From Deltaproteobacteria bacterium (lineage in GTDB: Bacteria > Myxococcota > XYA12-FULL-58-9): a stretch of DNA of 64,000 nt. The DNA is taken from contig JACRCV010000027.1 in assembly GCA_016218825.1 (NCBI GenBank), forward strand, positions 35,770 through 99,769. Direction: 5' to 3'. A program made the position numbers and the translations under genes. The notes under the pieces are model-generated. The model ran no database searches, was not told the DNA's origin, and worked only from the letters and a program-made list of their open reading frames with translations. Shown in pieces: positions 15,398 through 43,214 of the stretch (positions are counted from its first letter, which is position 1; each line of letters opens with the position of its first letter).

Positions 15398-15426
15398 GGC
15401 GCGAAGCGCCCGCCGGGAATCAAAAG
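15398..15426 (+). repeat. Intergenic double-hairpin repeat, 3' half only (copy a)
   Basis: Holds GGCGC-GAA-GCGCC followed by the family's 3' signature GGGAATCAAAAG. The first hairpin and G-rich linker seen in full copies are missing. It lies between two co-directional genes. Confidence 0.7.
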
Positions 15427-17753: not shown

Positions 17754-19172
17754 ATGCAGCGATTGGACATCTACCTCGTGGGCATCTGCGGCACCGGCGT
17801 CGGCTCGCTCGCCGGGCTGTTGCAGCAGCAGGGGCATCGGGTGCGCGGCAGCGACGAGCACGTCTATCCGCCGATGAGCGACAAGCTCGAGGAGTGGGGG
17901 ATCGAGGCCCTCGAGGGCTACGACGCGGGCCACCTCGAGCCCGCCCCCGATCTGGTGATCATCGGCAACGTGATCCGCGCCACCAACCCGGAGGCGGTGG
18001 CGGCGCGGGAGCGCGGCCTGAAGACGATGTCGATGCCGGAGGCGGTGGGGGAGTTCGGCATCGGCGCCAAGCACGCGATCGTCATCGCCGGGACCCACGG
18101 CAAGACCACGACCACGGCGCTGCTGGCGCACGTGTTGATGGAGGCCGGCCGCGACCCGTCGTTCCTGATCGGCGGCGCCCCGGTGGGCTTCAAGGAGTCG
18201 TTCCGCCACGGCAGCGGCTCGCTCTTCGTCGTCGAGGGCGACGAGTACGACACCGCCTACTTCGACAAGGGGCCGAAGTTCCTGCACTACCGGCCGCAGA
18301 TCGCGGTGATCACCAGCCTGGAGTTCGACCACGCCGACATCTACCCGACCCTGGCCGCGGTGGAGGCGGCCTTCCGGGCCCTGGTCGGCAAGGTGCCCGC
18401 GGACGGCCGCTTGGTGATCTGGCAGGGCGCGGAGCGCGCCTGGGCGCTGGCGCTGGCGCACGCCCGGACCTCGCGGGTGACGATCTACTCGACGCGGGCG
18501 ACGCCGGACGCGCACCTCTACATGAAGCAGTTCACCAGCGGCCCGGAGGGCCTGGTCTTCGAGCCGGTGCTCCGCGGCCGCTCGCTCGGCGAGATGCGGG
18601 TGGCGCTGTGGGGCGAATTCAGCGCCATGAACGTGCTCGCGGCGATCGGCGCGCTCGAGGACTGTGATCTCTCGGCGGCGCAGATCCGCCGCGGCATGGA
18701 AACCTTCAAGGGCGTAAAGCGGCGCCTCGAGATCCGCGGCGTGCACCGCGGCGTGGCCGTGGTCGACGACTTCGGCCACCATCCGACCGCGGTGCGCGAG
18801 ACTTTGGCGGCGTCGCGCAGCCGGTGGCCGGGGCGGCGCCTGTGGGCGGTCTTCGAGCCGCGCAGCGCCACGACGCGCCGCAACGTGTTCCAGCAGGAGC
18901 TGGTCGCCGCCTTCGATCAGGCGGACGAGATCGTGGTGGCGAGCCACGAGCGCTTGACCGAGATCCCGGTCGCGGATCGCTTCGATCCGGCGCAGTTGGT
19001 CGTGGACCTGGTGGCGCGCGGCCGGCGCGCTCGCTTCGTACCGACGATCAACGACATCGTGGCCCTGATCGGCCGCGAGGCGGCCGACGGCGACGTGGTG
19101 ATCATCTTCTCCAACGGCTCCTTCGGCGGCCTGCACGGCAAGCTCGAGGCGCGGCTCGAGGTGCGGGCGTGA
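17754..19172 (+). CDS. mpl: UDP-N-acetylmuramate:tripeptide ligase Mpl
   Basis: A 472-residue Mur-ligase family enzyme. Mpl reattaches recycled L-Ala-gamma-D-Glu-meso-DAP to UDP-MurNAc in the cytoplasm. Domains in order: N-terminal nucleotide domain (YLVGICGTGVGSLAGLL), ATP-binding central domain with GTHGKTTTT (~residue 113) and VVEGDEYDTAYFD, and C-terminal domain with DDFGHHPTAV and FSNGSFGGLH, a signature that separates Mpl from MurC. ATG 17754 comes 3 bp after the serine hydrolase stop. The stop overlaps the next GTG (GTGA). Presence of Mpl implies DAP-type peptidoglycan. Confidence 0.95.
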   Translation: MQRLDIYLVGICGTGVGSLAGLLQQQGHRVRGSDEHVYPPMSDKLEEWGIEALEGYDAGHLEPAPDLVIIGNVIRATNPEAVAARERGLKTMSMPEAVGEFGIGAKHAIVIAGTHGKTTTTALLAHVLMEAGRDPSFLIGGAPVGFKESFRHGSGSLFVVEGDEYDTAYFDKGPKFLHYRPQIAVITSLEFDHADIYPTLAAVEAAFRALVGKVPADGRLVIWQGAERAWALALAHARTSRVTIYSTRATPDAHLYMKQFTSGPEGLVFEPVLRGRSLGEMRVALWGEFSAMNVLAAIGALEDCDLSAAQIRRGMETFKGVKRRLEIRGVHRGVAVVDDFGHHPTAVRETLAASRSRWPGRRLWAVFEPRSATTRRNVFQQELVAAFDQADEIVVASHERLTEIPVADRFDPAQLVVDLVARGRRARFVPTINDIVALIGREAADGDVVIIFSNGSFGGLHGKLEARLEVRA

Positions 19173-20038
19173 ACGAGCTCGTCAGCGCCGCGACCGAGAT
19201 CGCGACCCAGGCCGGGCGGCTCCTCAAAGACGCGCACCACCGGGGGGACGCCGCGATCTCGTCGAAGAGCACGGTGATCGATCTGGTCACCGACGCCGAC
19301 CGCGAGAGCGAAGCCTATATTCTGGGGGCGATCCACGCCCGCTTTCCGGATCACGCCGTGGTCGCCGAGGAGTCCGGTCACGGTCGCCGCGACGGCGCCT
19401 ACCGTTGGGTCGTGGACCCTCTGGACGGCACGGTCAACTTCGCGCACGGGCTGCCGCACTTCGCGGTGCTGATCGGGGTGCAGGCCTGGAAGGGCGGCGC
19501 CTTCGAGACCGTGGTCGGCGTCACCTACGACCCCATGCTCGCCGAGCTCTTCGTGGCGGTTGAGGGCGGTCACGCGACGCTGAACGGCGCGCGGCTGCGG
19601 ACCTCCGGCACCACGCGCCTGATCGACGCGGTTGGCGCCACCGGGTTCATGTACGATCGCCTGAGCCGCGGCGACGACAACCACCGCGAGTTCTGCCGCT
19701 TGAACCTGTTGACGCAGGGCGTGCGCCGCACCGGCTCGGCCGGCCTGGACCTGGCGTACGTCGCCTGCGGCCGCTTCGACTTCTTCTGGGAGTCGACGCT
19801 GCGGCTCTGGGACCTGGTCGGCGGCGCCCTGATGATCCGGGAGGCCGGCGGGGTGATCACCAACGTCGACGGCAGGCCGCACGACCCGGATCGCGGCACC
19901 GCGCTCGCGGCCAATCCGACGCTGCACCCGATGGTGCTGGCGGCGCTCGCCTCGGCGGCGGCGCACCCGACCGGCAGCCGCGACGGCCTCGAGGCCTTCC
20001 TGCCGCCCGAGCTCGCCAAAGGGCTCTTCCGCGGCTAG
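19169..20038 (+). CDS. suhB: Inositol monophosphatase family protein
   Basis: A 289-residue Mg-dependent, lithium-sensitive-type phosphatase family member. GTG 19169 overlaps the mpl stop, so the pair is translationally coupled. Motifs: VTDADRESE, VVAEESG, WVVDPLDGTVNFAHGLP (metal-binding DPLDGT) and LWDLVGGALMIREAGG. Members hydrolyse inositol phosphate, fructose bisphosphate, histidinol phosphate or PAP. The symbol reflects closest general type; the substrate is not proven. Convergent with the MFS gene downstream. Confidence 0.85.
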   Translation: MNELVSAATEIATQAGRLLKDAHHRGDAAISSKSTVIDLVTDADRESEAYILGAIHARFPDHAVVAEESGHGRRDGAYRWVVDPLDGTVNFAHGLPHFAVLIGVQAWKGGAFETVVGVTYDPMLAELFVAVEGGHATLNGARLRTSGTTRLIDAVGATGFMYDRLSRGDDNHREFCRLNLLTQGVRRTGSAGLDLAYVACGRFDFFWESTLRLWDLVGGALMIREAGGVITNVDGRPHDPDRGTALAANPTLHPMVLAALASAAAHPTGSRDGLEAFLPPELAKGLFRG

Positions 20039-20054
20039 CCCCAATCAGCAGCAC

Positions 20055-20139
20055 GCGATCAAGTCCCCGCCCCACCCGGGGGCGGGGATTTAGGGGTGGG
20101 GGTGGGGAGCGGCGCGGCGGCCGCGCCGCGGGAATCAAA
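20055..20139 (+). repeat. Intergenic double-hairpin repeat, full copy (b)
   Basis: An 85-base element in the convergent gap 20039-20172. Hairpin 1 is 20065-20087 (9-bp stem, loop ACCCG). A G-rich linker of four or more G-runs follows. Hairpin 2 is 20109-20129 (arms GCGGCGCGG / CCGCGCCGC, loop CGG), then GGGAATCAAA. Same length and layout as copy e at 31794. Confidence 0.9.
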
Positions 20140-20172
20140 TGCAGGCGGGGTTCTCTTTGGGGAGTAGTGTTT

Positions 20173-21426
20173 CTATAGGTTACAGAGCCCGAGGCGAGCC
20201 CGGCGCCAGAGAAGCGCGAGGAGCGCGGTGGCGATGGCCGCCGACAGCACCAGCACCAGGAAGATGCGGGTCAGATCGCTCGGGTCTTCCTGGAACAGGT
20301 TGCCGATGACGAGCTCCTGCACCGCGGAGCCGACCGAGCCCATGCCGTTGATGATGCCGGCCGCGGCGAGCGCGTACTTGCGCGAGCCGACGTCGATGGC
20401 GCCGGCGCCGCTGATCAAAGAGTCCGGCCCGTAGAGCATGAAGCCGGTGAGGCTGTAGGCGATCCCGAAGGCGACGAGCGCGTGCGCCCCGGCGACGTAG
20501 AGCATCACGGTGCTCGCGAACAGGCCCACCATCATCATGAAGGCGACCGCGGCGCGCCGGCCTTGGAACAGGCGGTCGGACGCCCAGCCGGCGGCGAGCA
20601 CGCCGACGAAGCCGAAGAGGTCGAAGAGGGTCGAGAAGTAGCCGGCGTTGTCGTGCGCCAGGCCGAACGACAGCTGCAGGAAGTACGGGGTCCAGCTCCA
20701 CAGCGCGTAGCGGATGAACTTGATGAAGAAGTAGAAGCTGCCCATCATCAGGATGGTGACCAAGAGCGGGCGGTTGAAGCCGGTGACCGGGGCGGCGGCG
20801 CTCGCTTGCGGCGTGTCGTCCCTAGGCGTGACCGTGTCGGAGATTGGCGCCAGGCCGACGTCCTCGGGGCGGTTTCGCTGCAGGGCATAGAACAGGAACC
20901 AGACGCCGGTGAGCACCAGCGACGCCGCCCAGAACGAGTAGCGCCAGCCGGCGACGCCGAGGATGAAGGCGGCGAAGCCCTTCGCGAGGGCGCCACCGAT
21001 CTGGTAGCAGGTGGCCCAGACGCCCATCACCCGGCCGCGCTCCGCCTGGCGAAACCAGTTCGCCATCGTGCCGACGTTGCCGGACCAGCCGGTGGCTTGG
21101 GCGAGGCCGTTCAGCGCCATGAACGCCATGAAGGTCCAGGCGTTGTTGGCGAAGCCGAACACCGCGTTGCAGGCGAGGGAGATGCCCATGCCGGCGAGGA
21201 GCAGGCGGCGGGCGCCGATCCGTGAGCCGATGGCGGCGGCGTTGAACTCGCCGACGGCGTAGGCCACCAGGTAGACCAGGCCGATGTTGGCGAGGGTGTG
21301 GGCGTCGAGGCCCAGCTCCTGAGTCAGATCGCCTTTGACGACGTAGAACGTCTTGCGACAGAAGTAGAACCCGGCGTAGCTACACCAGGTGCTGACGAAG
21401 GCGCGGATGCGAAAGGCGCGCAACAT
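20173..21426 (-). CDS. MFS transporter, organophosphate:phosphate antiporter-like
   Basis: A 417-residue, ~12-helix inner-membrane transporter. ATG 21426 is chosen because it begins the protein just before CSYAGFYFCRKTFYVVK, the conserved first helix of GlpT/UhpT/UhpC-type proteins. The 135 codons open upstream are GC-rich filler over a repeat. Other family cues are RVMGVWATCYQIGGALAKG after helix 4 and YALWSWTPYFLQ in the second half. It could import glycerol-3-phosphate or sugar phosphates or act as a sensor-transporter; no partner regulator is adjacent. Divergent from the acyltransferase gene. Confidence 0.85.
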   Translation of the reverse strand: MLRAFRIRAFVSTWCSYAGFYFCRKTFYVVKGDLTQELGLDAHTLANIGLVYLVAYAVGEFNAAAIGSRIGARRLLLAGMGISLACNAVFGFANNAWTFMAFMALNGLAQATGWSGNVGTMANWFRQAERGRVMGVWATCYQIGGALAKGFAAFILGVAGWRYSFWAASLVLTGVWFLFYALQRNRPEDVGLAPISDTVTPRDDTPQASAAAPVTGFNRPLLVTILMMGSFYFFIKFIRYALWSWTPYFLQLSFGLAHDNAGYFSTLFDLFGFVGVLAAGWASDRLFQGRRAAVAFMMMVGLFASTVMLYVAGAHALVAFGIAYSLTGFMLYGPDSLISGAGAIDVGSRKYALAAAGIINGMGSVGSAVQELVIGNLFQEDPSDLTRIFLVLVLSAAIATALLALLWRRARLGLCNL

Positions 21427-21594
21427 CGCCGCATCGTGTGACAATGTCAGCGCGGGCGCGGGGATTATGGGGGCGACGGTCAACGGGTTTCGCTCACCAG
21501 GAAGGCGACACCTACATAGGCGAGCAGTGGTGCGAGGGCAAGGGGAACCACCGTTGCCGCCAGGGCCATCGAGTTCTCGGGCTTCGCCGATGTT

Positions 21595-21696
21595 GCCCGC
21601 CCCACCCGGGGGCGGGCCGAGAGCGGCGCCTGCCGCGCGACGCTCCGGGGTGGGGGTGGGGAGGACGGGCGCGAAGCGCCCGCCGGGAATCAAAAG
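21595..21696 (+). repeat. Intergenic double-hairpin repeat, variant (c)
   Basis: Lies in the divergent gap 21427-21760. Hairpin 1 is 21595-21617; its closing pair is G-C where copies b and e have C-G. The linker is longer. Hairpin 2 is 21664-21684 (GACGGGCGC / GCGCCCGCC, loop GAA, one mismatch), then GGGAATCAAAAG. The rest of this >300-bp gap holds only a doubtful 29-codon hydrophobic reading frame on the minus strand (21480-21569). Confidence 0.85.
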
Positions 21697-21760
21697 AAGC
21701 GAGAACTCGATCGCCTGTGCGTGGTTGACAGCCTCACGGGCCTCGGCTAGTTCGCCAGGC

Positions 21761-22648
21761 GTGGATCTCGCCACCGTCACCGCGCGTTTGTTGAAGCTTG
21801 CGACCAAGGTTTCGGACGAGGTCGGCAGCATCATCTCGAACCCCGAGCTCGACGCCCGCATGGATCGCGTGCCCGCCAACCTCGGGCCCTACGGCGTCGA
21901 CCCTTTCGGCTTCGATCCCGAGTACTTGAAGAAGTGCATGGGGATGGTGTCCTGGATCTATCACAACTACTTCCGCTGCCAGGTGTTCGGGGTCGCCAAC
22001 GTCCCCGAGGGCCGTTGTCTGCTCGTCGGCAACCACTCCGGGCAGCTGCCGTTCGACGCCGCGATGGTGTCGACCGCGGTGTTCCTGGAGCGCGAGCCGC
22101 CGCGCTTCGTGCGCAGCATGATCGAGCGCTTCGTGCCCGATACGCCCTTCATCTCGACCTTCATGGCGCGCTGCGGCCAGATCCTCGGCACCCCCGAGAA
22201 CTGCCGCCGGGTGCTGTCGAACGGCGACGCGATCTTGGTGTTCCCTGAAGGGGTGGGGGGGCTCAACAAGACCTGGCGGGATCGCTACCGGCTGCAGGAG
22301 TTCGGCCAGGGGTTCATGCGCCTGGCGATCGAGACCGCGAGCCCGATCGTGCCGGTGGCGGTGATCGGCGCCGAGGAGCAGGCGCCGACCTTCATCAACG
22401 CCAAGTTCATCGGCAAGCTCTTCGGCGTCCCGGCGTTTCCGATCACGCCGACGAACCCGCTGTTGCCGGTGGTCGGGCTGTTGCCCTACCCGACGCGCTA
22501 TCGGATCTACTTCGGCAAGCCGCTGCAGTTCACCGGCGACGCCAACGACGAGGACGAGGTGATCCTGAAGAAGGTCGATGAGGTGAAGGCGACGATGCAG
22601 GCCATGATCGACGACGGCCTGGCGGCGCGCGAGCACGTGTTCTGGTGA
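21761..22648 (+). CDS. Lysophospholipid acyltransferase-like protein (PlsC/MGAT-like)
   Basis: About 295 residues. GTG 21761 is the first plausible start after an intergenic repeat, but its ribosome site is poor and the true start is uncertain. Motifs are VGNHSGQLPFDAAM (catalytic His and Asp, with the longer spacing of the MGAT-like branch), FVRSMIERF, FPEGVGGLNKTWRDRY and PIVPVAVIGAEEQAP. Members transfer acyl chains from acyl-CoA or ACP to lysolipids or glycerides at the membrane. It lies 16 bp before an SDR gene with GAGGGAGAG between, suggesting one operon. Confidence 0.85.
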   Translation: MDLATVTARLLKLATKVSDEVGSIISNPELDARMDRVPANLGPYGVDPFGFDPEYLKKCMGMVSWIYHNYFRCQVFGVANVPEGRCLLVGNHSGQLPFDAAMVSTAVFLEREPPRFVRSMIERFVPDTPFISTFMARCGQILGTPENCRRVLSNGDAILVFPEGVGGLNKTWRDRYRLQEFGQGFMRLAIETASPIVPVAVIGAEEQAPTFINAKFIGKLFGVPAFPITPTNPLLPVVGLLPYPTRYRIYFGKPLQFTGDANDEDEVILKKVDEVKATMQAMIDDGLAAREHVFW

Positions 22649-22664
22649 CGGCGAGGGAGAGCCT

Positions 22665-23603
22665 GTGCGAATTCTGATCACCGGCATAGCCGGGCGTCTC
22701 GGGAGACGGGTCGCGAACCGCCTACGGCGCAACCATGAGGTGATCGGGATCGACCGCCGGCCCTGTCCGGCGCTGCCGACCGACATCGTCCACCATCGGG
22801 TGGACATCCGCCGCCGCCCGGCCGAGGACGTCTTCCGGCACGCCAAGATCGACGCCGTCATTCACCTCGGCATCATCCACAACTTCCGTATCCCCGCCGA
22901 GCAGCTCCACGCCAGAAACGTCATGGGCACCGAGACGCTCTTGAAGTACGTCAGCAAGTACAACGTCAAGAAGCTGGTGCTGCTGTCGAGCGGCGACGTC
23001 TACGGCGCGAGCGCCGAGAACAGCCAGTTCATCGACGAGGACGTGCCGCTGATGGCGAGCCAGCGCTTCCCGGAGATCCGGGCGCTCGTGGCCGTGGACC
23101 GGATGGTGCAGTCGTTCTTCTGGCGCCACCACGACATCGAGACCGTGATCCTGCGGCCGACCTTCATCGTCGGCCCGAACGTGCGCAACGCGCCGTCGAA
23201 GTACTTCCGCCTCCGGGTGATCCCGACCTTGATGGGCTTCGACCCGATGGTGCAGCTGTTGCACGAGGACGACCTGCTACGGATGCTGGATGCGTCGTTG
23301 AAGCCCGGCCTGCGCGGCGTCTTCAACCTCGCCGGCACCGCCCCGGTGCCGCTGTCGAGGATCTTGAAGATCCTCGGCAAGCCGACCATCCCGGTTCCGG
23401 CGCCGATCGCGCGGGCGTTGCTCGAGCGGGCCTGGAAGTACCGGCTGACGTCGTTTCCGGCGCCGGAGCTCGATCACATCCGCTACAACACCGTCCTCGA
23501 CACCAGCCGCGCCAAAGAGGTGCTCGGCATCGAGCCGGAGCGCAGCCTCTACGAGATCCTGGAGCCGTTCCGCGCCGAGGATCAGGCCGACTACACCGAC
23601 TGA
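22665..23603 (+). CDS. NAD-dependent epimerase/dehydratase-like SDR without YxxxK
   Basis: A 312-residue Rossmann-fold protein of the extended/atypical SDR group. GTG 22665 follows GAGGGAGAG. The nucleotide site TGIAGRLG, acidic GIDR after beta-2 and LSSGDVYGAS are present. In the stretch where SDRs carry the catalytic Tyr-x-x-x-Lys (after EDVPLMA, before VILRPTFIVGP) there is no tyrosine at all; it reads FPEIRALVAVDRM. It may bind nucleotide without classic redox chemistry. It probably shares an operon with the upstream acyltransferase. Substrate unknown. Confidence 0.8.
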   Translation: MRILITGIAGRLGRRVANRLRRNHEVIGIDRRPCPALPTDIVHHRVDIRRRPAEDVFRHAKIDAVIHLGIIHNFRIPAEQLHARNVMGTETLLKYVSKYNVKKLVLLSSGDVYGASAENSQFIDEDVPLMASQRFPEIRALVAVDRMVQSFFWRHHDIETVILRPTFIVGPNVRNAPSKYFRLRVIPTLMGFDPMVQLLHEDDLLRMLDASLKPGLRGVFNLAGTAPVPLSRILKILGKPTIPVPAPIARALLERAWKYRLTSFPAPELDHIRYNTVLDTSRAKEVLGIEPERSLYEILEPFRAEDQADYTD

Positions 23604-23606
23604 CGC

Positions 23607-24701
23607 CTACGTCTGCAGGGCGGCGCGGCGGCTGATCTCGAAGGCGATCGCCTGGTGCTCGAGACAACCGACGACCTCCTTGACCCGGGTCACCGGCGCC
23701 GCCGGCGCCTGAAAGCGGTCGCGCCAGGCGCGCGCCCGCGCTGCCGCGTTCCAGAGCTCGTCGTGGGTGATCGCCTGGCTCTCGGTGGCGGTCACCAGCC
23801 CCCGGTACAGCTCTTGGATGACCTCCGGGGCGTGGCAGGCGAGGAACACGTCGACGCCGGCCTTGAGCCCCATCGTCGCCATCGCGTGGACGTCGTAGTG
23901 GTCGTAGACCGCCTTCATCTCCAGGTCATCGCTGACGATGACGCCGCGAAACTGCAGCTCGCGGCGCAGCGGCGCCAGGGCCGGGACCGACAGGGTCGCC
24001 GGGCGATCCGGATCGAGCGCCTCGACCACCACGTGCGCGGTCATGATGGCGCTGACGCCGGCCTTGGCCGCGGCCGCGAACGGCAGCCACTCGACCTCGC
24101 GCAGGCGCGACAGCTCGTGGCTCACCTTCGGCAGCGCCTTGTGGCTGTCGAGGTCGGTGTCGCCGTGGCCCGGGAAGTGCTTGCCGCAGGCCGCGATCCC
24201 CGCCGCCTGCAGCGCGCCGATGAACGCCGCGCCCTGGGTCGCGACCTCGGCGGCCGACGCCGAGAACGAGCGGTCGCCGATCACCGGGTTCTTGGGGTTG
24301 GTGTCGACGTCCAAGACCGGCGCGAAGTCGACGTCGAAGCCGAGCGCCGAGAGCTCGCGGCCGAGCGCGGTCGCCATCGTCGCGGTGAGGGCGGTGTCGG
24401 CGGCGCGGCCGAGCGTCCGCATCGACGGCCACTCTGTGGCGGGAGCGCGGACCCGTTGCACCCGGCCGCCCTCCTGGTCGACGGCGCAAAGCAGCCGGGC
24501 GCGCGGGTCGAAGAGCTTCAGCTCGCGGTTGAGCTCGGCGACCTGCAGCGGCGACTCGATGTTGCGGGCGAACAGGATCAACCCCAACGGCTTCACCTCG
24601 CGCAGGATCTCCTTGAGCTCGGCGGACAGCGTTTGCCCGTCGAAGCCGCAGATGATGGCGTGACCGGCAGCGGCGCGGATCTCTTCCCGGGTCTTGTACA
24701 T
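23607..24701 (-). CDS. nagZ: Beta-N-acetylhexosaminidase NagZ (GH3)
   Basis: A 364-residue cytoplasmic glycosidase that removes GlcNAc from GlcNAc-anhydroMurNAc peptides in wall recycling. ATG 24701 is chosen because GAGGG precedes it; the frame extends further upstream without a site. Key motifs are VDQEGGRVQRV, KHFPGHGDTDLDSH (substrate-binding KH and the loop His-Asp general acid/base typical of NagZ) and VIVSDDLEMKA with the nucleophile Asp. Length is normal. It converges on the SDR gene with a 3-bp gap. It complements ldcA-like and mpl genes 5-9 kb away. Confidence 0.93.
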   Translation of the reverse strand: MYKTREEIRAAAGHAIICGFDGQTLSAELKEILREVKPLGLILFARNIESPLQVAELNRELKLFDPRARLLCAVDQEGGRVQRVRAPATEWPSMRTLGRAADTALTATMATALGRELSALGFDVDFAPVLDVDTNPKNPVIGDRSFSASAAEVATQGAAFIGALQAAGIAACGKHFPGHGDTDLDSHKALPKVSHELSRLREVEWLPFAAAAKAGVSAIMTAHVVVEALDPDRPATLSVPALAPLRRELQFRGVIVSDDLEMKAVYDHYDVHAMATMGLKAGVDVFLACHAPEVIQELYRGLVTATESQAITHDELWNAAARARAWRDRFQAPAAPVTRVKEVVGCLEHQAIAFEISRRAALQT

Positions 24702-24795
24702 GGTGACGTCCCTCGAGGGCGGCGGGAGTAAAGCACGAAAGGGGCGTGCGGGCAGCCCCTTGGCGCGCACGCGCCCGCCCGTGTAGGATGAACCC

Positions 24796-25521
24796 ATGTC
24801 CGGTCGCGACCTCCTCTACAAACCCACGGTGCCGGTGCCGCTCCCCGAGGAGTCGAGCACCACGAAGCCGGCGGCCGACAAGGTCGGGGTCAAGGTCCCG
24901 CACGGTCGCGACCTGGGCGGCGTGCCCGGGGACGGGCCGGTGCGAGCGCCGGTGGCGAAGGCGCCGACCGAACGCGCTTCGCCGCCGGCGTTCAAGGCGG
25001 CGTACTTCAACAAGGACATCTCGGGGGTCAAGGAAGCGAACCTCCGCCAGAGCAACCTCGCGGCGCTCCGGGGCGCCGAGGGCGCGAGCGATCTGAAGAA
25101 GGTGGTGCTGCCGCCGGCGATCGGCATCGAGACCCCGGATCCGGCGCAGATCCGCCAGGCCGGGGAGCTGATGGGCCTGGACGGCGGGCTGGAGCTGAAC
25201 CTGCAGACCTTCCTCGGGCGGCAGGGCGCCTTCGCCAAGGCCAAGGGCGTGACCGTCGAGATGATCGAGGAGCGCCTGCGGCAGCTCGAGGCGATGGTGA
25301 CCGCGCGGCGCGCGGCGCTCGCCCGGATGCTCGCGGGGCGCGCCAAGGCCCGGGCGAGCTCGGTGACGCTCGAGCAGGCCGATGCCGCCAAAGGCAAGGC
25401 TCTCGACGAGACCGAAGACCTCGCCGCCGCCGGTGGGGACCTGGTGCGCCGGACCGCGGCCCAGGCCGAGGGCATGCACCTGCGGTTGGCGAAGGCGTTG
25501 GGCATCAAGAGGCAGAAGTAG
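24796..25521 (+). CDS. Hypothetical hydrophilic protein
   Basis: A 241-residue protein, divergent from nagZ by ~94 bp. I recognise no domain. The first ~70 residues are rich in Pro, Lys and charged residues and look disordered. The middle has a Leu-rich patch (AGELMGLDGGLELNLQTFLG). Residues ~150-230 are Ala/Arg/Glu/Leu-rich and likely helical or coiled coil (EMIEERLRQLEAMVTARRAAL). There is no signal peptide or membrane segment, so it is probably cytoplasmic. Codon use matches its neighbours, supporting a real gene. Confidence 0.6.
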   Translation: MSGRDLLYKPTVPVPLPEESSTTKPAADKVGVKVPHGRDLGGVPGDGPVRAPVAKAPTERASPPAFKAAYFNKDISGVKEANLRQSNLAALRGAEGASDLKKVVLPPAIGIETPDPAQIRQAGELMGLDGGLELNLQTFLGRQGAFAKAKGVTVEMIEERLRQLEAMVTARRAALARMLAGRAKARASSVTLEQADAAKGKALDETEDLAAAGGDLVRRTAAQAEGMHLRLAKALGIKRQK

Positions 25522-25589
25522 CGCGACCGGTCAGAGTGATTCGCCGACGTCGCCGTCGATGAGCGCGAAAGGCGCGGTGCTGAGTCGTC

Positions 25590-26333
25590 GTGATTGATCT
25601 TCATTGTCATCTGTTGCCCGCGGTCGACGACGGCGCGTTGAGCCTGGAGATGGCGGTGACGATGGCGCGCGCCCTCGCGGCCCGAGGCTATCAGACGATC
25701 GCGGCGTCGCCGCACATGGGCACCGGTCCGGGGGGCGACGTGGCGCTCGAGGTCGCGGCGGCCGCGAGAGCGCTGCTCGCGGCCGAGCTGCGGCGGCTCG
25801 ACGTGGTGCTCGAGTTGGTGCCGAACGGCGAGCACTGGCTGTCGACGGAGCTCTTCGACCGGCTCGCGGCCGGGACCGCGGTGCCGATCGGTGGCGCGGG
25901 GCGCTGGCTGCTCGTCGAGGTGCCGTGGACCGGGATCCCGAACCTGGAGGACGTGATCTTTCGCTTGCAGACGAAAGGCTGGCGTCTGCTGCTCGCGCAT
26001 CCGGAGCGGCTCGAGTCGCTGTCGCTCGAGCTGTTGCTGCGGCTGTCGGCGCGGGGGGTGCGGATGCAGTTGGAGCTCGGCAGCTTTGTTGGCATGTTCG
26101 GCGGCGACGCGGAGCACAAGGCCGAGCTGCTGATGCGAAAGGGTGTCGCGCACGTGCTGGCTACGGACATGCATCGCCCGGACAAGGCGAGTGAGTGGTT
26201 GGCGGCGGCGCTCACCGCGGTGCAGAGGCGTTTCGGGCTCGAGGCGCTGCGGCGCGGGACGGCCGACAACCCGCGGCTGATCCTCGACAACGGCGGCGCC
26301 GAGGCGGTCGCGCCTCTGGTGGAGGTCGCGTGA
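25590..26333 (+). CDS. PHP-domain protein-tyrosine phosphatase (CpsB/CapC/YwqE-like)
   Basis: A 247-residue metal-dependent phosphatase. GTG 25590 starts at MIDLHCHLLPAVDDGA, the PHP metal motif of Mn-dependent tyrosine phosphatases that dephosphorylate capsule kinases. IAASPHMG, NGEHWLS, LAHPER and ATDMHRPD supply further His/Asp/Glu ligands. In relatives it tunes polysaccharide export through BY-kinases; no such kinase is in the window. The stop overlaps the GTG of the next gene (GTGA), so it is coupled to a flippase-like membrane protein, which supports an envelope-polymer role. Confidence 0.85.
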   Translation: MIDLHCHLLPAVDDGALSLEMAVTMARALAARGYQTIAASPHMGTGPGGDVALEVAAAARALLAAELRRLDVVLELVPNGEHWLSTELFDRLAAGTAVPIGGAGRWLLVEVPWTGIPNLEDVIFRLQTKGWRLLLAHPERLESLSLELLLRLSARGVRMQLELGSFVGMFGGDAEHKAELLMRKGVAHVLATDMHRPDKASEWLAAALTAVQRRFGLEALRRGTADNPRLILDNGGAEAVAPLVEVA

Positions 26334-27349
26334 AGCGAGCGCTGCGCCTCGGGATCAGTCTCGGTTTGAGCGGCCTGTTTCTGTGGTTCGCGTTTCACAA
26401 CGTCGACCTCGACACGATGTGGGCGCAGCTGCGGCAGGTCCGGTGGTGGGCGGTGGTCGCGTTCGCGCTCCTGACCATGTTGATCCAGCTGTGCCGCATC
26501 TTGCGCTGGGAGGTGCTGGTCCGGCCGTTCGTCAAGATCTCGACCCCGACCCTGTTCCGGGTCTCCGGCCTCGGGCTGATGCTGATCATGGTGTTGCCGC
26601 TGCGCCTCGGCGAGTTCGCCCGACCTTACCTGTTGAAGAAGGAGACCGGGGCGCCGTTCTCGGCCGGGGTCGGCTCGGTGGTCGTCGAGCGGGCGATGGA
26701 CGGCCTGCTGGTGACCGTGTTGTTCTTTCTCACGACCTTCCTGCTCGGCGCCTCGCACCCGGTGCCGCGGCCGCTGATGGCGGCGGCGGTGGCGGCGCTA
26801 CTGTTCTTCGCCGCGGTGACCGTGGTGATCATCTTTGCCCTCATCACCGAGGCCCGCACCCTGGCGCTGGTGCGCCGTTTGGGGACGCCGTTGGCGCCGA
26901 GGCTCACCGAGCGCGCGGTCGGCATGCTCGGCGCGTTCGTGGTCGGGCTGCGCTCGCTCCCCGACGTCCGGGCCCTCGCGGTGTTCATCGGCTACACGTT
27001 GATTTACTGGGCCGCGAACGGCTGGGGCATGTACCTGGTGATGCGCGGCATGGGCTGGGACGTGCCGCTGTTGGCCGGCTTCACCATCGTCTGCGTGCTC
27101 GTCATCGGCATCATGATCCCGGCGGGCCCCGGTCACCTCGGCACCTTCCAAGGGGCGCTGTTGGCCGGGCTGTCGATCTTCAACATCGGCGCCTCCGAGG
27201 CCGCGGCCTACGGGATGGTCATCTATCCGCTGACGCTCCTGGTCATCATCGCCTTCGGCGTGCCCTATCTCTTCGGGCACGGCGGCGAGGTGTCCGAGAT
27301 CATGCGGGCGTCGGCGGCGGCTGAAGAGGGCGCTGCCGGTCCAAGCTAG
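26330..27349 (+). CDS. Lysylphosphatidylglycerol synthase TM-region / flippase-like membrane protein
   Basis: A 339-residue inner-membrane protein with about 8 hydrophobic helices (PF03706-type, formerly UPF0104). GTG 26330 overlaps the preceding stop. Signature segments are LPLRLGEFARPYLLKK, VVVERAMDG and IPAGPGHLGTFQGA. The MprF aminoacyltransferase domain is absent, so it is a stand-alone transmembrane module. Such proteins are thought to move lipids or lipid-linked molecules. Coupling to the PHP phosphatase suggests a role in envelope glycolipid or polysaccharide handling. Convergent with the ammonia-lyase gene across two repeat copies. Confidence 0.85.
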   Translation: MKRALRLGISLGLSGLFLWFAFHNVDLDTMWAQLRQVRWWAVVAFALLTMLIQLCRILRWEVLVRPFVKISTPTLFRVSGLGLMLIMVLPLRLGEFARPYLLKKETGAPFSAGVGSVVVERAMDGLLVTVLFFLTTFLLGASHPVPRPLMAAAVAALLFFAAVTVVIIFALITEARTLALVRRLGTPLAPRLTERAVGMLGAFVVGLRSLPDVRALAVFIGYTLIYWAANGWGMYLVMRGMGWDVPLLAGFTIVCVLVIGIMIPAGPGHLGTFQGALLAGLSIFNIGASEAAAYGMVIYPLTLLVIIAFGVPYLFGHGGEVSEIMRASAAAEEGAAGPS

Positions 27350-27364
27350 GTCGCCCTGCACCTG

Positions 27365-27445
27365 CTTTTGATTCCCGCGCCGCAGCTGCCGCGGCGCTCC
27401 CCACCCCCACTCCCCCAACCCCTCGCCCCCGGGTGGGGCGAGGGG
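27365..27445 (-). repeat. Intergenic double-hairpin repeat, inverted full copy (d1)
   Basis: Read on the minus strand it has hairpin 1 (27419-27445, an 11-bp stem extended by T-A and C-G pairs), a G-rich linker, hairpin 2 (arms GCGCCGCGG / CTGCGGCGC, one G-T wobble) and GGGAATCAAAAG. It lies in a convergent gap. Confidence 0.85.
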
Positions 27446-27456
27446 CGCCGATCCAT

Positions 27457-27490
27457 GAGCGCGGCCGAGAGCGGCCGCGCGGGAATCAAG
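27457..27490 (+). repeat. Intergenic double-hairpin repeat, 3' half (d2)
   Basis: Arms GCGCGGCCG / CGGCCGCGC with a 4-base loop, then GGGAATCAAG. It points opposite to d1, so the two face away from each other and each ends next to a gene 3' end. Confidence 0.75.
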
Positions 27491-27501
27491 AGATGAGCGG
27501 C

Positions 27502-29040
27502 CTAATCAGCCCACGAGCGCGCGAGCTTGCCGACGCTCGCCTCGACGGCGTCGAGGACGGTGCAGCGCTCGACGGCGGCGGCCATGTTGTTGTGGTCGTT
27601 GAACAACGGCCGATCGACGTCCAAGTGGCGGACGGTCTCGCGCACCGCGGCGCGCGCCGCTTCTGTGCCTTTGCCGAAATGGAACTCGCGGAAGTCGAGG
27701 GCCTGCGCCGCGGCGATGAGCTCGATGGCCAACACCCCGTGGGCGTTGGTCAGGATCTGCCGGGCCTTCAACGCCCCGTTCATCCCCATGCTGACGAAGT
27801 CCTCCTGGTCGGCGGCGGCGGGGATCGACTGGATGCAGGACGGCGTCGACAGGATGCGCTGCTCGACGATCAGCATGTCGGCGGTGTACTGGCTGAGCAT
27901 GTGGCCGGAGAACATCCCGGCGCCCTTGGTCAAGAACGCCGGCAGGCCGACCGACAGCGCCGGGTTCAACAGCCGGTTCAGCCGGCGCTCCGAGAGCACG
28001 CTCACCATCGTCACCCCGGCGGCGACCGCGTCGATCGGCAGGCTCACCGGCGTGCCCTGAAAGTTGGCGCCGGTCAGCACCCGAGCCTCGCCGGGCAAGA
28101 AGATCGGGTTGTCGGCCACCGCGTTGAGCTCGATCTCCACCTGGGTGCGCGCCCAGCGCAGCGCGTCGCGCAACGCGCCGACCACCTGCGGCGTCGAGCG
28201 CAGCGAGTAGGCGTCTTGGACCTTGACCTTGAGCTTGCCGGTCGCGAGGTCGGAGCCGTTGAAGACCCGGCGCAGGTTCGCGGCGGTGGTCACCGCGCCG
28301 TGAAAGCCGCGCAGCTCGTGCAGCTTCGCTTCGTAGGGCCGGAGGTTCGCGAGCAGCGCCTCGAGGGCCATCGCCGCGCAGATCTCCGCCTGGCCGATCC
28401 AGCGCTCGGTGTCGTAGAGGAACAGCGCCGCCATCCCGGTGAGCATGTTGGAGCCGTTGATCGCCGCGAGCCCGTCGCGCGCCTTCAAGCCCGGGATCGG
28501 CACCCCGGCGGCGCGCATCGCCTCGCCGGTCGGCAGCCGCTTGCCCTGGTAGAAGCACTCGCCTTCGCCCATCAGCGACAGCGCGATCTGGCTCATCGGC
28601 GACAGATCGCCGCAGGCGCCGACGCTGCCCTTCTCGCAGGCGATCGGGGTGACGCCGGCGTTGAGCAGGCGGACGTAGGTCTCGGTGATCTCGGGACGGC
28701 AGCCGGAGTGGCCGCGGGCGTGGACGTTGATGCGCGACAGCATCGCGGCGCGCACGTGCTCGACGGGCGCCGGCTGGCCGATGCCGGCGGCGTGGTTGTA
28801 GATCAGGTACATCTGGAAGTCGCGCACCTGGTCGTCGGAGAGCGCGACCTCGGAGAGCTCGCCGATGCCGGTGTTGACGCCGTACATCACCTCGCGGCGC
28901 TCGATCTTCTCCTCCAAGAGCGCGCGGCAGCCGACGATGCGATCCCGGGCGTCCTTGGCGAGCTCCACCGCCTCCTGGTGTCGCGCCACCTTGACCACGT
29001 CTTCGAGGGTGAGATGATTGCCGTTGACAACGACGGACAT
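27502..29040 (-). CDS. hutH: Histidine/aromatic amino acid ammonia-lyase (MIO family) with Ala-Cys-Gly triad
   Basis: A 512-residue member of the histidine ammonia-lyase family; ATG 29040 gives the usual length. HAL releases ammonia from histidine to make urocanate. Known HAL positions align almost without gaps: Y53, H83, the MIO triad at 142-144, N195, then Q275/Y278/R281, F327 and E413 (HAL Q277, Y280, R283, F329, E414). The MIO precursor, usually Ala-Ser-Gly, is Ala-Cys-Gly here (GSVGACGDLSP). Other differences are YNHAAG for SHAAG and QEDF for QEDH. No other hut gene is nearby, so an aromatic substrate or aminomutase activity is possible and the symbol is provisional. It is divergent from the cystathionine beta-synthase gene by 127 bp. 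Confidence 0.8.
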   Translation of the reverse strand: MSVVVNGNHLTLEDVVKVARHQEAVELAKDARDRIVGCRALLEEKIERREVMYGVNTGIGELSEVALSDDQVRDFQMYLIYNHAAGIGQPAPVEHVRAAMLSRINVHARGHSGCRPEITETYVRLLNAGVTPIACEKGSVGACGDLSPMSQIALSLMGEGECFYQGKRLPTGEAMRAAGVPIPGLKARDGLAAINGSNMLTGMAALFLYDTERWIGQAEICAAMALEALLANLRPYEAKLHELRGFHGAVTTAANLRRVFNGSDLATGKLKVKVQDAYSLRSTPQVVGALRDALRWARTQVEIELNAVADNPIFLPGEARVLTGANFQGTPVSLPIDAVAAGVTMVSVLSERRLNRLLNPALSVGLPAFLTKGAGMFSGHMLSQYTADMLIVEQRILSTPSCIQSIPAAADQEDFVSMGMNGALKARQILTNAHGVLAIELIAAAQALDFREFHFGKGTEAARAAVRETVRHLDVDRPLFNDHNNMAAAVERCTVLDAVEASVGKLARSWAD

Positions 29041-29167
29041 CCTGGCGACTCCTTGAGTGCGCGTGCGAGCGCGCGCGGCGCTTCGGGCGCGGACTATGGC
29101 AAATCCGACCGCTGCCGGCAATCGGCCCCGGGCGGCTCGAGGAGTGATCACAGGAGAGGCGCTACCG

Positions 29168-30538
29168 ATGCAGACCTTCGCCAACGTTCTCGAGGCTATC
29201 GGCCGGACCCCGCTCGTCCGCTTGAACAAGGTCGTGGGCGCCAAAGACGCCACGGTGTTCGCGAAGCTCGAGTACCTGAACCCGGGCGGCTCGATCAAAG
29301 ACCGGATGGCGCTCTTCATCATCGAGGCGGCGGAGAAGGACGGTCGCCTGAAGCCCGGCAGCACCATCGTCGAGAACACCAGCGGCAACACCGGCGTCGG
29401 CGTCGCGCTCGCGGCGGCGGTGAAGGGTTACCAGTGTGTCTTCACGATGCCCGACAAGATGTCGAAGGAGAAGCAGGACACCCTGAAGGCCTTCGGCGCC
29501 CAGGTGGTCGTGACCCCGACCAACGTCGCCGCCGACTCCCCGGAGAGCTACTACTCGGTGGCGAAGCGCATCGCCGCCGAGACCCCGAACAGCTTCTATC
29601 TGAACCAGTACCACAACCCGCAGAACATCGAGGCCCACTACCGGCTCACCGCGCCGGAGATCTGGGAGCAGAGCGGCGGCAAGCTCGACTGCTTCGTCGC
29701 CGGCATCGGCACCGGCGGGACGATGAGCGGCTGCGGCAAGTACTTCAAGGAGAAGAACCCGGCGGTGAAGAACATCGGCGTCGATCCGGTGGGCTCGGTG
29801 TATCACTCGCTGTTCAAGACCGGGCAGCTGTCGAAGCCGCACGTCTACAAGGTCGAGGGCATCGGCGAGGACATGATCTGCGGCGCCATGGATCTGACGG
29901 TGATGGACGACGTCCGCCAGGTCGACGACCGGCAGGCCTTCCTGATGGCGCGGCGGCTGGCGCGCGAGGAGGGGATCCTGGCCGGCGGCTCGAGCGGCGC
30001 GGCGGTGCACGTCGCGGTGGAGATGGCGCGCGAGCTCGGGCGCGGCCGCACCGTCGTCGTGCCGCTGCCGGACGGCGGTCGCTCCTACATCTCGAAGTTC
30101 TTCTCCGACGAGTGGATGCGCGACAACGGCTTCCTCACCGCCGCCGGGCTCAAAGCGGCAACCGTCGGCGACGTGCTCGGCCTGCGGCGCGGCAAGGTGG
30201 TGACCGCGAAGGCGACTGACCGCATCCCTGCCATCATCGGCATCTTGAAGGATCACGACATCTCGCAGGTCCCGGTGGTCGACGCGGGCGGCAAGGCCGT
30301 CGGCATGGTGCACGAGCTCGACCTGTTGAACGCGCTGGTCGCCGGGCGGGTGAAGACCGACGACAGCGTCGCGGCGTTGGTGCATCCCCTCGAGGGCGGC
30401 GTGCGCCTCGACGAGCCGATGGCGCGCCTCAAGGAGATCTTCGACGACGACCACGTCGCGGTGGTCCTCGACGGCGACCGGGTGATCGGCATCGTCACCA
30501 AGATCGACTTGATCGCTTTTCTCGGACAGCGGATGTGA
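29168..30538 (+). CDS. Cystathionine beta-synthase with tandem CBS domains
   Basis: A 456-residue PLP enzyme that condenses serine with homocysteine to cystathionine in reverse transsulfuration. ATG 29168 follows GGAGAGG. The catalytic domain (1-~325) has GRTPLVRL, NPGGSIKDR with PLP lysine K44, ENTSGNTGVGVALAA and GTGGTMSGC. The C-terminal ~125 residues are two CBS motifs (DISQVPVVD, VAVVLDGDRVIGIVTKIDL) that bind adenosyl ligands in relatives and regulate activity. A cystathionine gamma-lyase gene follows after 41 bp with its own strong ribosome site, a typical transsulfuration operon. Confidence 0.93.
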   Translation: MQTFANVLEAIGRTPLVRLNKVVGAKDATVFAKLEYLNPGGSIKDRMALFIIEAAEKDGRLKPGSTIVENTSGNTGVGVALAAAVKGYQCVFTMPDKMSKEKQDTLKAFGAQVVVTPTNVAADSPESYYSVAKRIAAETPNSFYLNQYHNPQNIEAHYRLTAPEIWEQSGGKLDCFVAGIGTGGTMSGCGKYFKEKNPAVKNIGVDPVGSVYHSLFKTGQLSKPHVYKVEGIGEDMICGAMDLTVMDDVRQVDDRQAFLMARRLAREEGILAGGSSGAAVHVAVEMARELGRGRTVVVPLPDGGRSYISKFFSDEWMRDNGFLTAAGLKAATVGDVLGLRRGKVVTAKATDRIPAIIGILKDHDISQVPVVDAGGKAVGMVHELDLLNALVAGRVKTDDSVAALVHPLEGGVRLDEPMARLKEIFDDDHVAVVLDGDRVIGIVTKIDLIAFLGQRM

Positions 30539-30579
30539 TCGAGGGCGGGCGCCGCGCCGTTCTCGAGAGGGGAGCCACG

Positions 30580-31776
30580 ATGAGCCGACAACACCTGGAA
30601 ACGCTCGCGATCCACGCCGGGCAGCCGCCGGATCCGCTGACCGGCGCGATCATGACGCCGGTCTACCTGACCTCGACCTACGTTCAGGACGGCCCCGGCG
30701 AGCACAAGGGCTACGAGTATTCGCGCACCCAGAACCCCACCCGGCACGCGCTGCAAGACTGCATCGCGGCGCTCGAAGGCGCGGACCACGGCCTGGCGTT
30801 CGCCTCCGGCCTGGCGGCGATGGACGCGCTCGTGCACCTGTGCTCGACCGGCGACCACGTGGTCTGCTGCGACGACGTCTACGGCGGCACCTTCCGCCAG
30901 TTCGACAAGGTGTTTCGCCAGCTCGGGCTGAGCTTCACCTTCGTCGACATGACCGACCTGAAGGCGGTGACCGGGGCGATGCAGAAGAGCACGCGCCTGG
31001 TGTGGATCGAGACCCCGACGAACCCGATGCTGAAGATCATCGACATCGAGGCGGTGGCGGCGATCGCCCGCAAGCACAAGGCGCTGGCGGTGGTCGACAA
31101 CACCTTCGCGACCCCGTTCTTCCAGCAGCCGCTGGCGCTCGGCGCCGACGTCGTGCTGCACTCGACCACCAAGTACCTGAACGGCCACTCGGACGTCGTC
31201 GGCGGCGCGCTGGCGATGAACGACGGCGCGTTGTTCGAGAAGCTCAAGTTCCTGCAGAACGCGGTCGGCGCGGTGCCGGGGCCTCTCGACTGCTTCCTGG
31301 TGCTGCGCGGCCTGAAGACCCTGCACGTGCGGATGCAGCGCCACGGCGAGAACGCCGCCGCCCTCGCCCTGTGGCTCGGCAAGCGGGGAGAGGTCGAGCG
31401 GGTGATCTACCCCGGCCTCGACAGCCACCCGCAGCATCGGCTCGCCGCGAGCCAGATGTGCGGCTTCGGCGGCATGTTGGCGTTCGACCTGAAGGGCGGC
31501 CTCGCCGCGGCGCGCGCGTTCTTGAAGAGCCTGAAGGTGTTCGCCTGCGCCGAGTCGTTGGGCGGCGTCGAGAGCCTCATCGAGCACCCGGCGATCATGA
31601 CCCACTCGAGCGTGCCGGCGGCGACCAGAGCCAAGCTCGGGATCCGCGACGGCTTCATCCGGATGTCCTGCGGCATCGAGCACCTCGACGACCTCACCGC
31701 CGACCTGGAGCAAGGCTTCCAGGCGATCAAGGGCAAGGCGGGCCGGTCGACGAAGCCGACCGGGCGCGCCAAGTAG
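30580..31776 (+). CDS. Cystathionine gamma-lyase (Cys/Met metabolism PLP enzyme)
   Basis: A 398-residue fold-type-I PLP enzyme. ATG 30580 follows GAGAGGGGAG. Motifs: YSRTQNPTR, FASGLAAMDA, WIETPTNPMLKIIDI, and HSTTKYLNGHSDVVGG with PLP lysine K198. Gamma-lyase (cystathionine to cysteine) is favoured over gamma-synthase because the gene follows cystathionine beta-synthase, but sequence alone does not fully separate these. The last ~12 residues are Lys/Arg-rich and poorly conserved. It converges on udk with repeat copy e in between. Confidence 0.9.
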   Translation: MSRQHLETLAIHAGQPPDPLTGAIMTPVYLTSTYVQDGPGEHKGYEYSRTQNPTRHALQDCIAALEGADHGLAFASGLAAMDALVHLCSTGDHVVCCDDVYGGTFRQFDKVFRQLGLSFTFVDMTDLKAVTGAMQKSTRLVWIETPTNPMLKIIDIEAVAAIARKHKALAVVDNTFATPFFQQPLALGADVVLHSTTKYLNGHSDVVGGALAMNDGALFEKLKFLQNAVGAVPGPLDCFLVLRGLKTLHVRMQRHGENAAALALWLGKRGEVERVIYPGLDSHPQHRLAASQMCGFGGMLAFDLKGGLAAARAFLKSLKVFACAESLGGVESLIEHPAIMTHSSVPAATRAKLGIRDGFIRMSCGIEHLDDLTADLEQGFQAIKGKAGRSTKPTGRAK

Positions 31777-31793
31777 CCTGCACTCGGGAGAAA

Positions 31794-31878
31794 GCGATCA
31801 AGTCCCCGCCCCACCCGGGGGCGGGGAGTTAGGGGTGGGGGTGGGGAGCGCCGCGGCAACCGCGGCGCGGGACTCAAA
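31794..31878 (+). repeat. Intergenic double-hairpin repeat, full copy (e)
   Basis: An 85-base element in the convergent gap 31777-32018. Hairpin 1 is 31804-31826. Hairpin 2 is 31848-31868 (GCGCCGCGG / CCGCGGCGC, loop CAA). It ends GGGACTCAAA. Compared with copy b, base pairs inside hairpin 2 are exchanged on both arms. The remaining ~140 bases of the gap show nothing clear. Confidence 0.9.
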
Positions 31879-32018
31879 CGAAGCCCCAGACCTCGCCCTT
31901 CGTTAGCTGATCGTTCCGCGCCCTTTCTTGCGTTCCTCGCGCTCGGGGCTTCGCCTCCGCGCTGCGGTACCGGCGGGCGCGACGGTGTATTTGAGTCGAG
32001 GCGGCAAGGCTCAAGCGC

Positions 32019-32651
<633 letters not shown>

Positions 32652-43181: not shown

Positions 43182-43214
43182 CCTCGCCCCCGCGGCGGCC
43201 GCGCGGGAATCAAG
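43182..43214 (+). repeat. Intergenic double-hairpin repeat, degenerate 3' copy (f)
   Basis: CGCGG-CGG-CCGCG hairpin followed by GGGAATCAAG, in the convergent gap 43177-43228. Hairpin 1 is reduced to CTCGCCCCC. Confidence 0.65.

Follow-up and report, generated by a model that had tools for sequence, protein, structure and literature searches.

Covarying hairpins of a dispersed repeat in a Myxococcota genome may belong to short mobile elements that settle at gene ends

In a 64,000-nucleotide stretch of a Deltaproteobacteria bacterium genome (Myxococcota; GenBank assembly GCA_016218825.1, contig JACRCV010000027.1, positions 35,770 to 99,769; hereafter the window), a short repeat recurs whose core consists of a first hairpin, a G-rich linker, a second hairpin and the tail GGGAATCAA. 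Between its copies both arms of the hairpins have changed together, and a reading made from the window's sequence alone had taken this as direct evidence for selection on structure. Does such covariation mean that the host uses the repeat as a folded RNA, or can it be a property of the way in which the copies spread? The genome-wide analysis reported here favours the second answer, with a confidence above even and well short of certainty: the copies are short non-coding elements (non-coding as judged by their length), with inverted ends and target duplications around the two-hairpin core, that have likely spread as transposons mobilised by an enzyme whose gene lies elsewhere. The original observation is real and its reading changes, to a mobile, protein-less element whose ends seem to set its place and whose core folds.

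The genome measures 6.54 Mb in 121 contigs (96.5% complete), and the window lies on contig C118. Copy b of the window (Table 1), used as a DNA query, gave 42 matches, and the signature GTGGGGAG-N(15-45)-GGGAATCAA occurs at 140 places in this genome (69 forward and 71 reverse), the pattern read backwards at none. Hairpin-2 units were drawn from about 100 listed signature places and from later-fetched stretches, not from all 140 signatures. There were 131 units in the first extraction (134 minus 3 dropped) and later 142 from the same genome (25 with the type-C ends described below and 117 non-C), together with 6 from a sister genome of the same genus (G001).

The pairing seen in the window is present as described. 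Hairpin 1 closes with C-G in copies b and e and with G-C in copy c, and has a longer stem (11 bp) in copy d1; both hairpin-2 arms are altered between copy b (GCGGCGCGG/CCGCGCCGC) and copy e (GCGCCGCGG/CCGCGGCGC); and the loops CGG, CAA, GAA and CAG all occur. A covariation test over many genomic copies, which the sequence-only reading had proposed as a check, was passed strongly, as none of 500 shuffles equalled any of five covariation measures. In 57 distinct hairpin-2 rows of 38 bases each, 97.3% of the stem cells are paired (81.8% in shuffles), and two-sided changes occur at 7 of the 9 stem pairs and in 63 cells (21.5 in shuffles). Sliding the partner by 1-3 columns lowers pairing to 21-53% of cells. 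These rows represent 57 of 68 distinct units, after removal of 7 type-C units, two readings of one locus, one more odd-headed locus and one far variant; the control is shuffling, which leaves the relatedness of copies in and is not phylogeny-aware.

That relatedness matters for what the covariation can mean. As dispersed mobile repeats, the copies inherit many of their paired variants from few common types: the common arm types account for 43, 19, 10, 5 and 5 of the 117 non-C units, and the 25 type-C units have a single arm pair. Arms are perfect in 83 of the 117, and the arm pair of copy b occurs just once among these 117; a half-way form of this variant, altered in one arm only, lies at C46:60948. 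Among the 20 nine-base arm pairs seen in single copies, 5 differ from the nearest common arm type by exactly one complementary double, 14 by exactly one one-sided change, and 1 is far from all; independent mutation of the arms would be expected to give about 0.016 doubles. Template-switch repair can re-symmetrise a near-perfect palindrome without selection. The covariation is therefore compatible with inheritance of common types together with either selection for a folded strand or such repair, and strong covariation alone does not show selection on RNA. Of the earlier claim, the covariation stands and its status as direct evidence for selection does not.

The one-sided changes carry a further hint. 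Counted over distinct arm pairs of the non-C units, they comprise 8 G.T, 1 A.C (p = 0.039) and 10 other mismatches; the G.T to A.C ratio becomes 11:2 when the sister genome is added (p = 0.022) and 11:3 once the type-C change is counted as well (p = 0.057). In the sister genome, 3 of six copies are perfectly paired and the others together have 1 A.C and 3 G.T. The G.T excess hints weakly at folding of the plus strand, as RNA or single-stranded DNA, and strand-biased mutation could mimic it; DNA and RNA folds are otherwise indistinguishable, the G.T excess being the sole strand-specific hint. Wobble counts of hairpin 1 were set aside, as many of its G.T cells fall outside the stem.

The evidence for mobility comes from the ends. 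One kind of core is carried by two kinds of inverted ends. TA-type ends read (TA)GACCGYTTTC...GAAARCGGTC(TA) and enclose elements mostly of 110-125 bp, whereas type-C ends read CAGGGCRATCGAGYTCTCG / CGAGARCTCGATYGCCYTG and enclose elements of 153-158 bp. In 12 distinct type-C copies with both ends recognised, the flanking 10-mers are identical in 5 and alike in at least 8 of 10 bases in 8. Over 13 rows (the same 12 copies, the L195 element being entered in both orientations), the mean identity is 8.46 of 10, compared with 2.79 in mismatched pairs, and 9 of the 13 rows reach at least 8 of 10, compared with 0 of 156 mismatched pairs. TA-type copies have a shorter duplication: among 12 copies of 110-125 bp, TA stands on both sides in 9, on one side in 2 and on neither in 1, in a window where TA makes up 0.9% of dinucleotides. 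These 12 are the rows, out of 40 candidates, of that length and with the hairpins in view (two have a damaged tail); one 124-bp row without hairpins and 27 rows of other lengths were left out, and the counted 12 include every one of the 9 rows flanked by TA at both ends. The word around the TA is mostly CTAG. TA-type ends also occur without the core, at L185 (around 1523), and a similar stretch follows copy e.

The two kinds of ends also differ in placement, judged with a simple codon-usage gene caller of our own and checked by eye alone. For the 84 non-C copies with both neighbours known, 44 junctions are convergent, 33 tandem and 7 divergent (another 25 copies border a sequence edge and 2 fall within a called gene), whereas 13 type-C junctions include 1 convergent, 6 tandem and 6 divergent (besides 5 at edges and 2 inside genes); the difference in convergent preference is significant (Fisher p = 0.0025). 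The 49 junctions of the window overall are 33 tandem, 8 convergent and 8 divergent. In 39 of the 86 non-C copies with an opposite-strand gene downstream, GGGAATCAA lies 14-18 nt before that gene's stop, and in 58 of the 86 the distance is at most 25 nt. On the left side, stops are within reach in 38 of 55 copies with a same-strand gene upstream (TAG 26, TGA 9 and TAA 3). In 22 copies without an opposite gene, the right end is still often CTAG or one step off, which points to a word as the target more than to the stop codon itself. Since TA-type ends favour convergent junctions and stop codons and type-C ends do not, it seems to be the ends rather than the hairpins that determine where an insertion goes.

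CTAG is itself scarce. In a 456-kb sample enriched for elements, it was seen 157 times against 1272 expected from base composition, and is thus eight-fold rarer. Of these occurrences 66 lie in element zones, and the other 91 comprise 28 at called stops, 19 inside called genes and 44 elsewhere. Flush stop pairs may have arisen by single insertion into a YTAR shared by convergent genes; among 34 convergent pairs in the sample that lack an element, 3 have an overlap of exactly 4 bp, the layout that such a YTAR gives. At the orthologue of junction d in the sister genome, 24 bp and no element separate the stops, compared with 152 bp in the window. MIRU units of mycobacteria insert where the translation signals of adjacent genes overlap. 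The likeness is one of placement, although here the signal is the stop codon, at times probably a YTAR shared by two convergent genes.

If the elements are transposons of this kind, a TA-type enzyme would use TA, preferably in CTAG. As CTAG is rare here and even scarcer inside genes, insertions would gather at gene ends, and an insertion would give a folded 3' tail to one or both genes of a convergent pair. The arms would stay complementary as copies that fold when single-stranded are multiplied, and template-switch repair that re-symmetrises the palindrome would help to keep them paired. The tail may also have a function at the 3' ends of mRNAs. The arms may be kept paired by selection (on mobility or RNA) or by repair, with most weight on mobility plus repair. 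A bolder extension, which is speculative and quite unlikely to hold as a whole, is that a transposon landing on stop codons via TA in CTAG adds a two-sided folded 3' tail to convergent gene pairs and breaks neither gene, and that two unrelated transposition systems have adopted the same core because the fold pays, in the cell or in mobility.

Several observations weigh against transposition as the explanation. No transposase with matching ends was found in five families searched in the 121-contig genome: PF13358, PF00872 and PF13586 had no match; PF01609 (DDE_Tnp_1) matched one gene without element-like ends (L227 1231-2622, minus strand, contig C85); and none of three Y1_Tnp genes is flanked by or linked to the repeat. 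TA is missing from at least one side in 3 of the 12 TA-type copies, and the flanking 10-mers of copy c match in 5 of 10 bases only, with no clear duplication. The ends are abutted by TGA and TAA stops as well, which CTAG alone leaves unexplained, and the stop-codon offset could partly mirror what selection tolerates in a compact genome. The five complementary doubles in single copies could mean selection in place and not on mobility. Candidate partners of the IS630, Mutator, IS5 and IS4 kind were rejected, none having matching ends.

An alternative that is possible, if rather doubtful, is that the covariation is purely mutational and historical, the product of a few common types, of correction by template switching and of exchange among copies, without any selection on folding. 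Such a history would agree with the concentration of most copies in few arm types and with loops that occur in part as reverse complements (CAG 46/CTG 5, CCG 13/CGG 11). Similarly, in 108 units each of the two commonest arm types is found with every one of the four named linker types, so that ends, linker and arms were exchanged between copies or changed in parallel; long insertions in the linker also occur. However, CAT, CAA and CAC loops have no reverse complements of equal frequency, and a fold in use is hinted at by the wobble asymmetry, weakly, and by the pairing that the sister genome's diverged copies have kept (perfect in 3 of 6).

It is unlikely that the hairpins act as RNA, as a 3' tail that shields mRNA ends or blocks convergent read-through, with host selection keeping arms and positions. 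The location of copies after stop codons and between convergent genes is consistent with such a role, as are the five complementary doubles, the 8:1 preference for G.T over A.C and the stability of the folds (z from -1.8 to -3.8 in five stretches). However, type-C elements have the same kind of core and are convergent in 1 of 13 junctions only, 14 one-sided changes stand alongside the five doubles, and the repeat was seen in one genus only, in 2 of 195 genomes of the phylum. In addition, no T-run terminator was found at any core in 20000-32100, where hairpins followed by a T-run number 3 against 5.3 in shuffles, one of these on the minus strand at copy c's right end. The minimum-energy folds of 2 of the 5 stretches (copy b minus strand and copy c) also choose another pairing for hairpin 1. 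Pairing of the hairpin 1 5' arm and loop with the linker, which are complementary and so paired in 2 of 5 folds, was rejected as a candidate, as loop and linker types vary independently.

A repetitive extragenic palindrome (REP) or bacterial interspersed mosaic element system moved by a REP-associated tyrosine transposase (RAYT) is very improbable. In that case hairpin 2 with its GTGG head would be the REP and copies d1 and d2 an inverted pair, which they resemble, and a GTGG head (GTGGGGA(G)) indeed precedes the palindrome in 122 of 131 units, as in the REPs listed in PMC2817692. Inverted ends and target duplications do not fit such a system, and none of the three Y1_Tnp genes is flanked by the repeat, two being flanked instead by unrelated long inverted repeats. 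A RAYT origin was rejected because no link was found between the repeat and these genes. A G-quadruplex element is likewise highly unlikely: three G-runs are kept in most linkers and hairpin 1 offers a fourth, but the motif fits the linker alone in just 5 of 78. The sequence-only reading had counted at least four runs of 4-5 G in the linker, and had proposed that a quadruplex could form between the hairpins. Runs of four or more G number exactly three in 65 of the 78 linkers, two in 9, four in 3 and one in 1, which leaves that proposal weak. With the 3' arm of hairpin 1 included, the motif is found in 50 of 78 and would open hairpin 1, and on these counts a quadruplex was rejected as a general feature of the linker.

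The closest known systems are bacterial miniature inverted-repeat transposable elements with TA ends, namely RUP of pneumococcus and the Correia elements (PMC2229807). They have in common with the repeat a length below 200 bp, no protein, inverted ends, TA ends, more than 100 copies, intergenic location and the ability to fold. The repeat differs from both in being GC-rich, in its separable two-hairpin core that is also carried by 10-bp-duplicating ends, and in abutting stop codons. With IS630-derived elements it shares the TA duplication, whereas no IS630 transposase domain (PF13358) was found in the genome. REPs, including GTAG-tagged ones, also have a GT(A/G)G head followed by a short GC palindrome, complementary stem alternatives, G.T pairs and a preference for convergent and tandem junctions (PMC3733652 and PMC2817692). 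Ends of GTAG REPs are reported often to provide the TAG stop of flanking genes (PMC3733652), and the abutment of stop codons is less novel because published REPs already abut, and even supply, stops. In contrast to REPs, the repeat has two different hairpins per unit, outer inverted ends and target duplications, and no repeat-flanked tyrosine transposase was found. TIRtrons (TIRYT), as described in PMC3733652, are present in this genome with 2 of the 3 Y1_Tnp genes; their ends are unrelated to those of the repeat. The two genes (L039 and L040) lie between long inverted repeats with GGGGTCAG, which fits the published GGGGWSAS.

The family has a narrow distribution. A covariance model matched 2 of 195 Myxococcota genomes, this one and its sister, and no other genus (stricter filters were applied over 40 of the genomes). 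The sequence pattern matched 2 of 57 relatives, at 4 places in the sister genome and 1 place in G010, where the middle part, judged by eye, forms no such hairpin. A pattern scan of genome contigs gave one record, JAKLEG010000104.1 (Myxococcota bacterium RA.bin128), in which the element sequence is the same as in contig C7 of the sister genome. No Rfam covariance model matched the repeat, plasmid and phage sequences gave no match, and a limited literature search turned up no such element in Myxococcota.

The implications extend beyond this genome. Strong base-pair covariation across dispersed repeats need not mean a host RNA, which is a trap for covariation screens. A folding core on two sets of ends is a natural experiment that separates the effects of the ends (placement) from those of the fold (action). 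If the proposed landing on stop codons is true, it is a way for a mobile element to pass one hundred copies while costing its compact host genome little.

Table 1. Copies and remnants of the repeat, with adjoining features, in window coordinates
Feature	Position	Strand	Remark
Copy b, hairpin 1, CCCCGCCCC-ACCCG-GGGGCGGGG, 9-bp stem	20065-20087	+	read in sequence
Gene upstream of copy b	19169-20038		stop codon 26 nt before hairpin 1; gene caller
Copy b, G-rich linker, three runs of 4-5 G	20088-20108	+	read in sequence
Copy b, hairpin 2, GCGGCGCGG-CGG-CCGCGCCGC, and tail GGGAATCAA	20109-20138	+	
Copy c, type-C element with inverted ends	21561-21718	+	left end CAGGGCCATCGAGTTCTCG
Copy c, hairpin 1, G-C closing pair	21595-21617	+	read in sequence
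Copy c, linker end, hairpin 2 GACGGGCGC-GAA-GCGCCCGCC and tail GGGAATCAA	21647-21693	+	one A.C mismatch in hairpin 2
Copy d1, hairpin 1 (27419-27445, 11-bp stem), linker, hairpin 2 and tail	27368-27445	-	stop codon of facing gene 18 nt past tail
Copy d2, second hairpin 2, GCGCGGCCG-AGAG-CGGCCGCGC, and tail	27459-27489	+	oriented away from d1; without own hairpin 1
Copy e, hairpin 1 (31804-31826, CCCCGCCCC-ACCCG-GGGGCGGGG), linker, hairpin 2 (31848-31868) and tail GGGACTCAA	31804-31877	+	
Core-less repeat adjoining copy e	31880-32012 (approximate limits)	+	resembles TA-ended hairpin-free element L185
Remnant, right part of type-C hairpin 2 and tail	15398-15423	+	
Remnant, part of hairpin 2 and tail	43190-43213 (left limit approximate)	+	between convergent genes (43176, 43229)
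End words of the two kinds, GACCGYTTTC and CAGGGCRATCGAG			

Additional observations concern the assembly and the neighbourhood of the copies. Of about 100 listed signature places, 29 lie at most 300 bp from a contig end, for instance in C3, C19, C22, C24, C30, C33 and C39, and further contigs with a signature near the end are C43, C46, C51, C57, C59, C84 and C89. Past hairpin 1, several of these contigs share one foreign-looking stretch with other contigs, and the contig-end copies look like library or assembly chimeras joined within hairpin 1. Between copies b and c lies a transporter-like gene (20173-21426; L159) that has no counterpart at this place in the sister genome, where the two neighbour genes stand close together. 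Elsewhere in the window, a 2463-codon frame (639-8030) encodes a large repeat protein and contains 11 copies of a 64-nt unit at 327-bp spacing.

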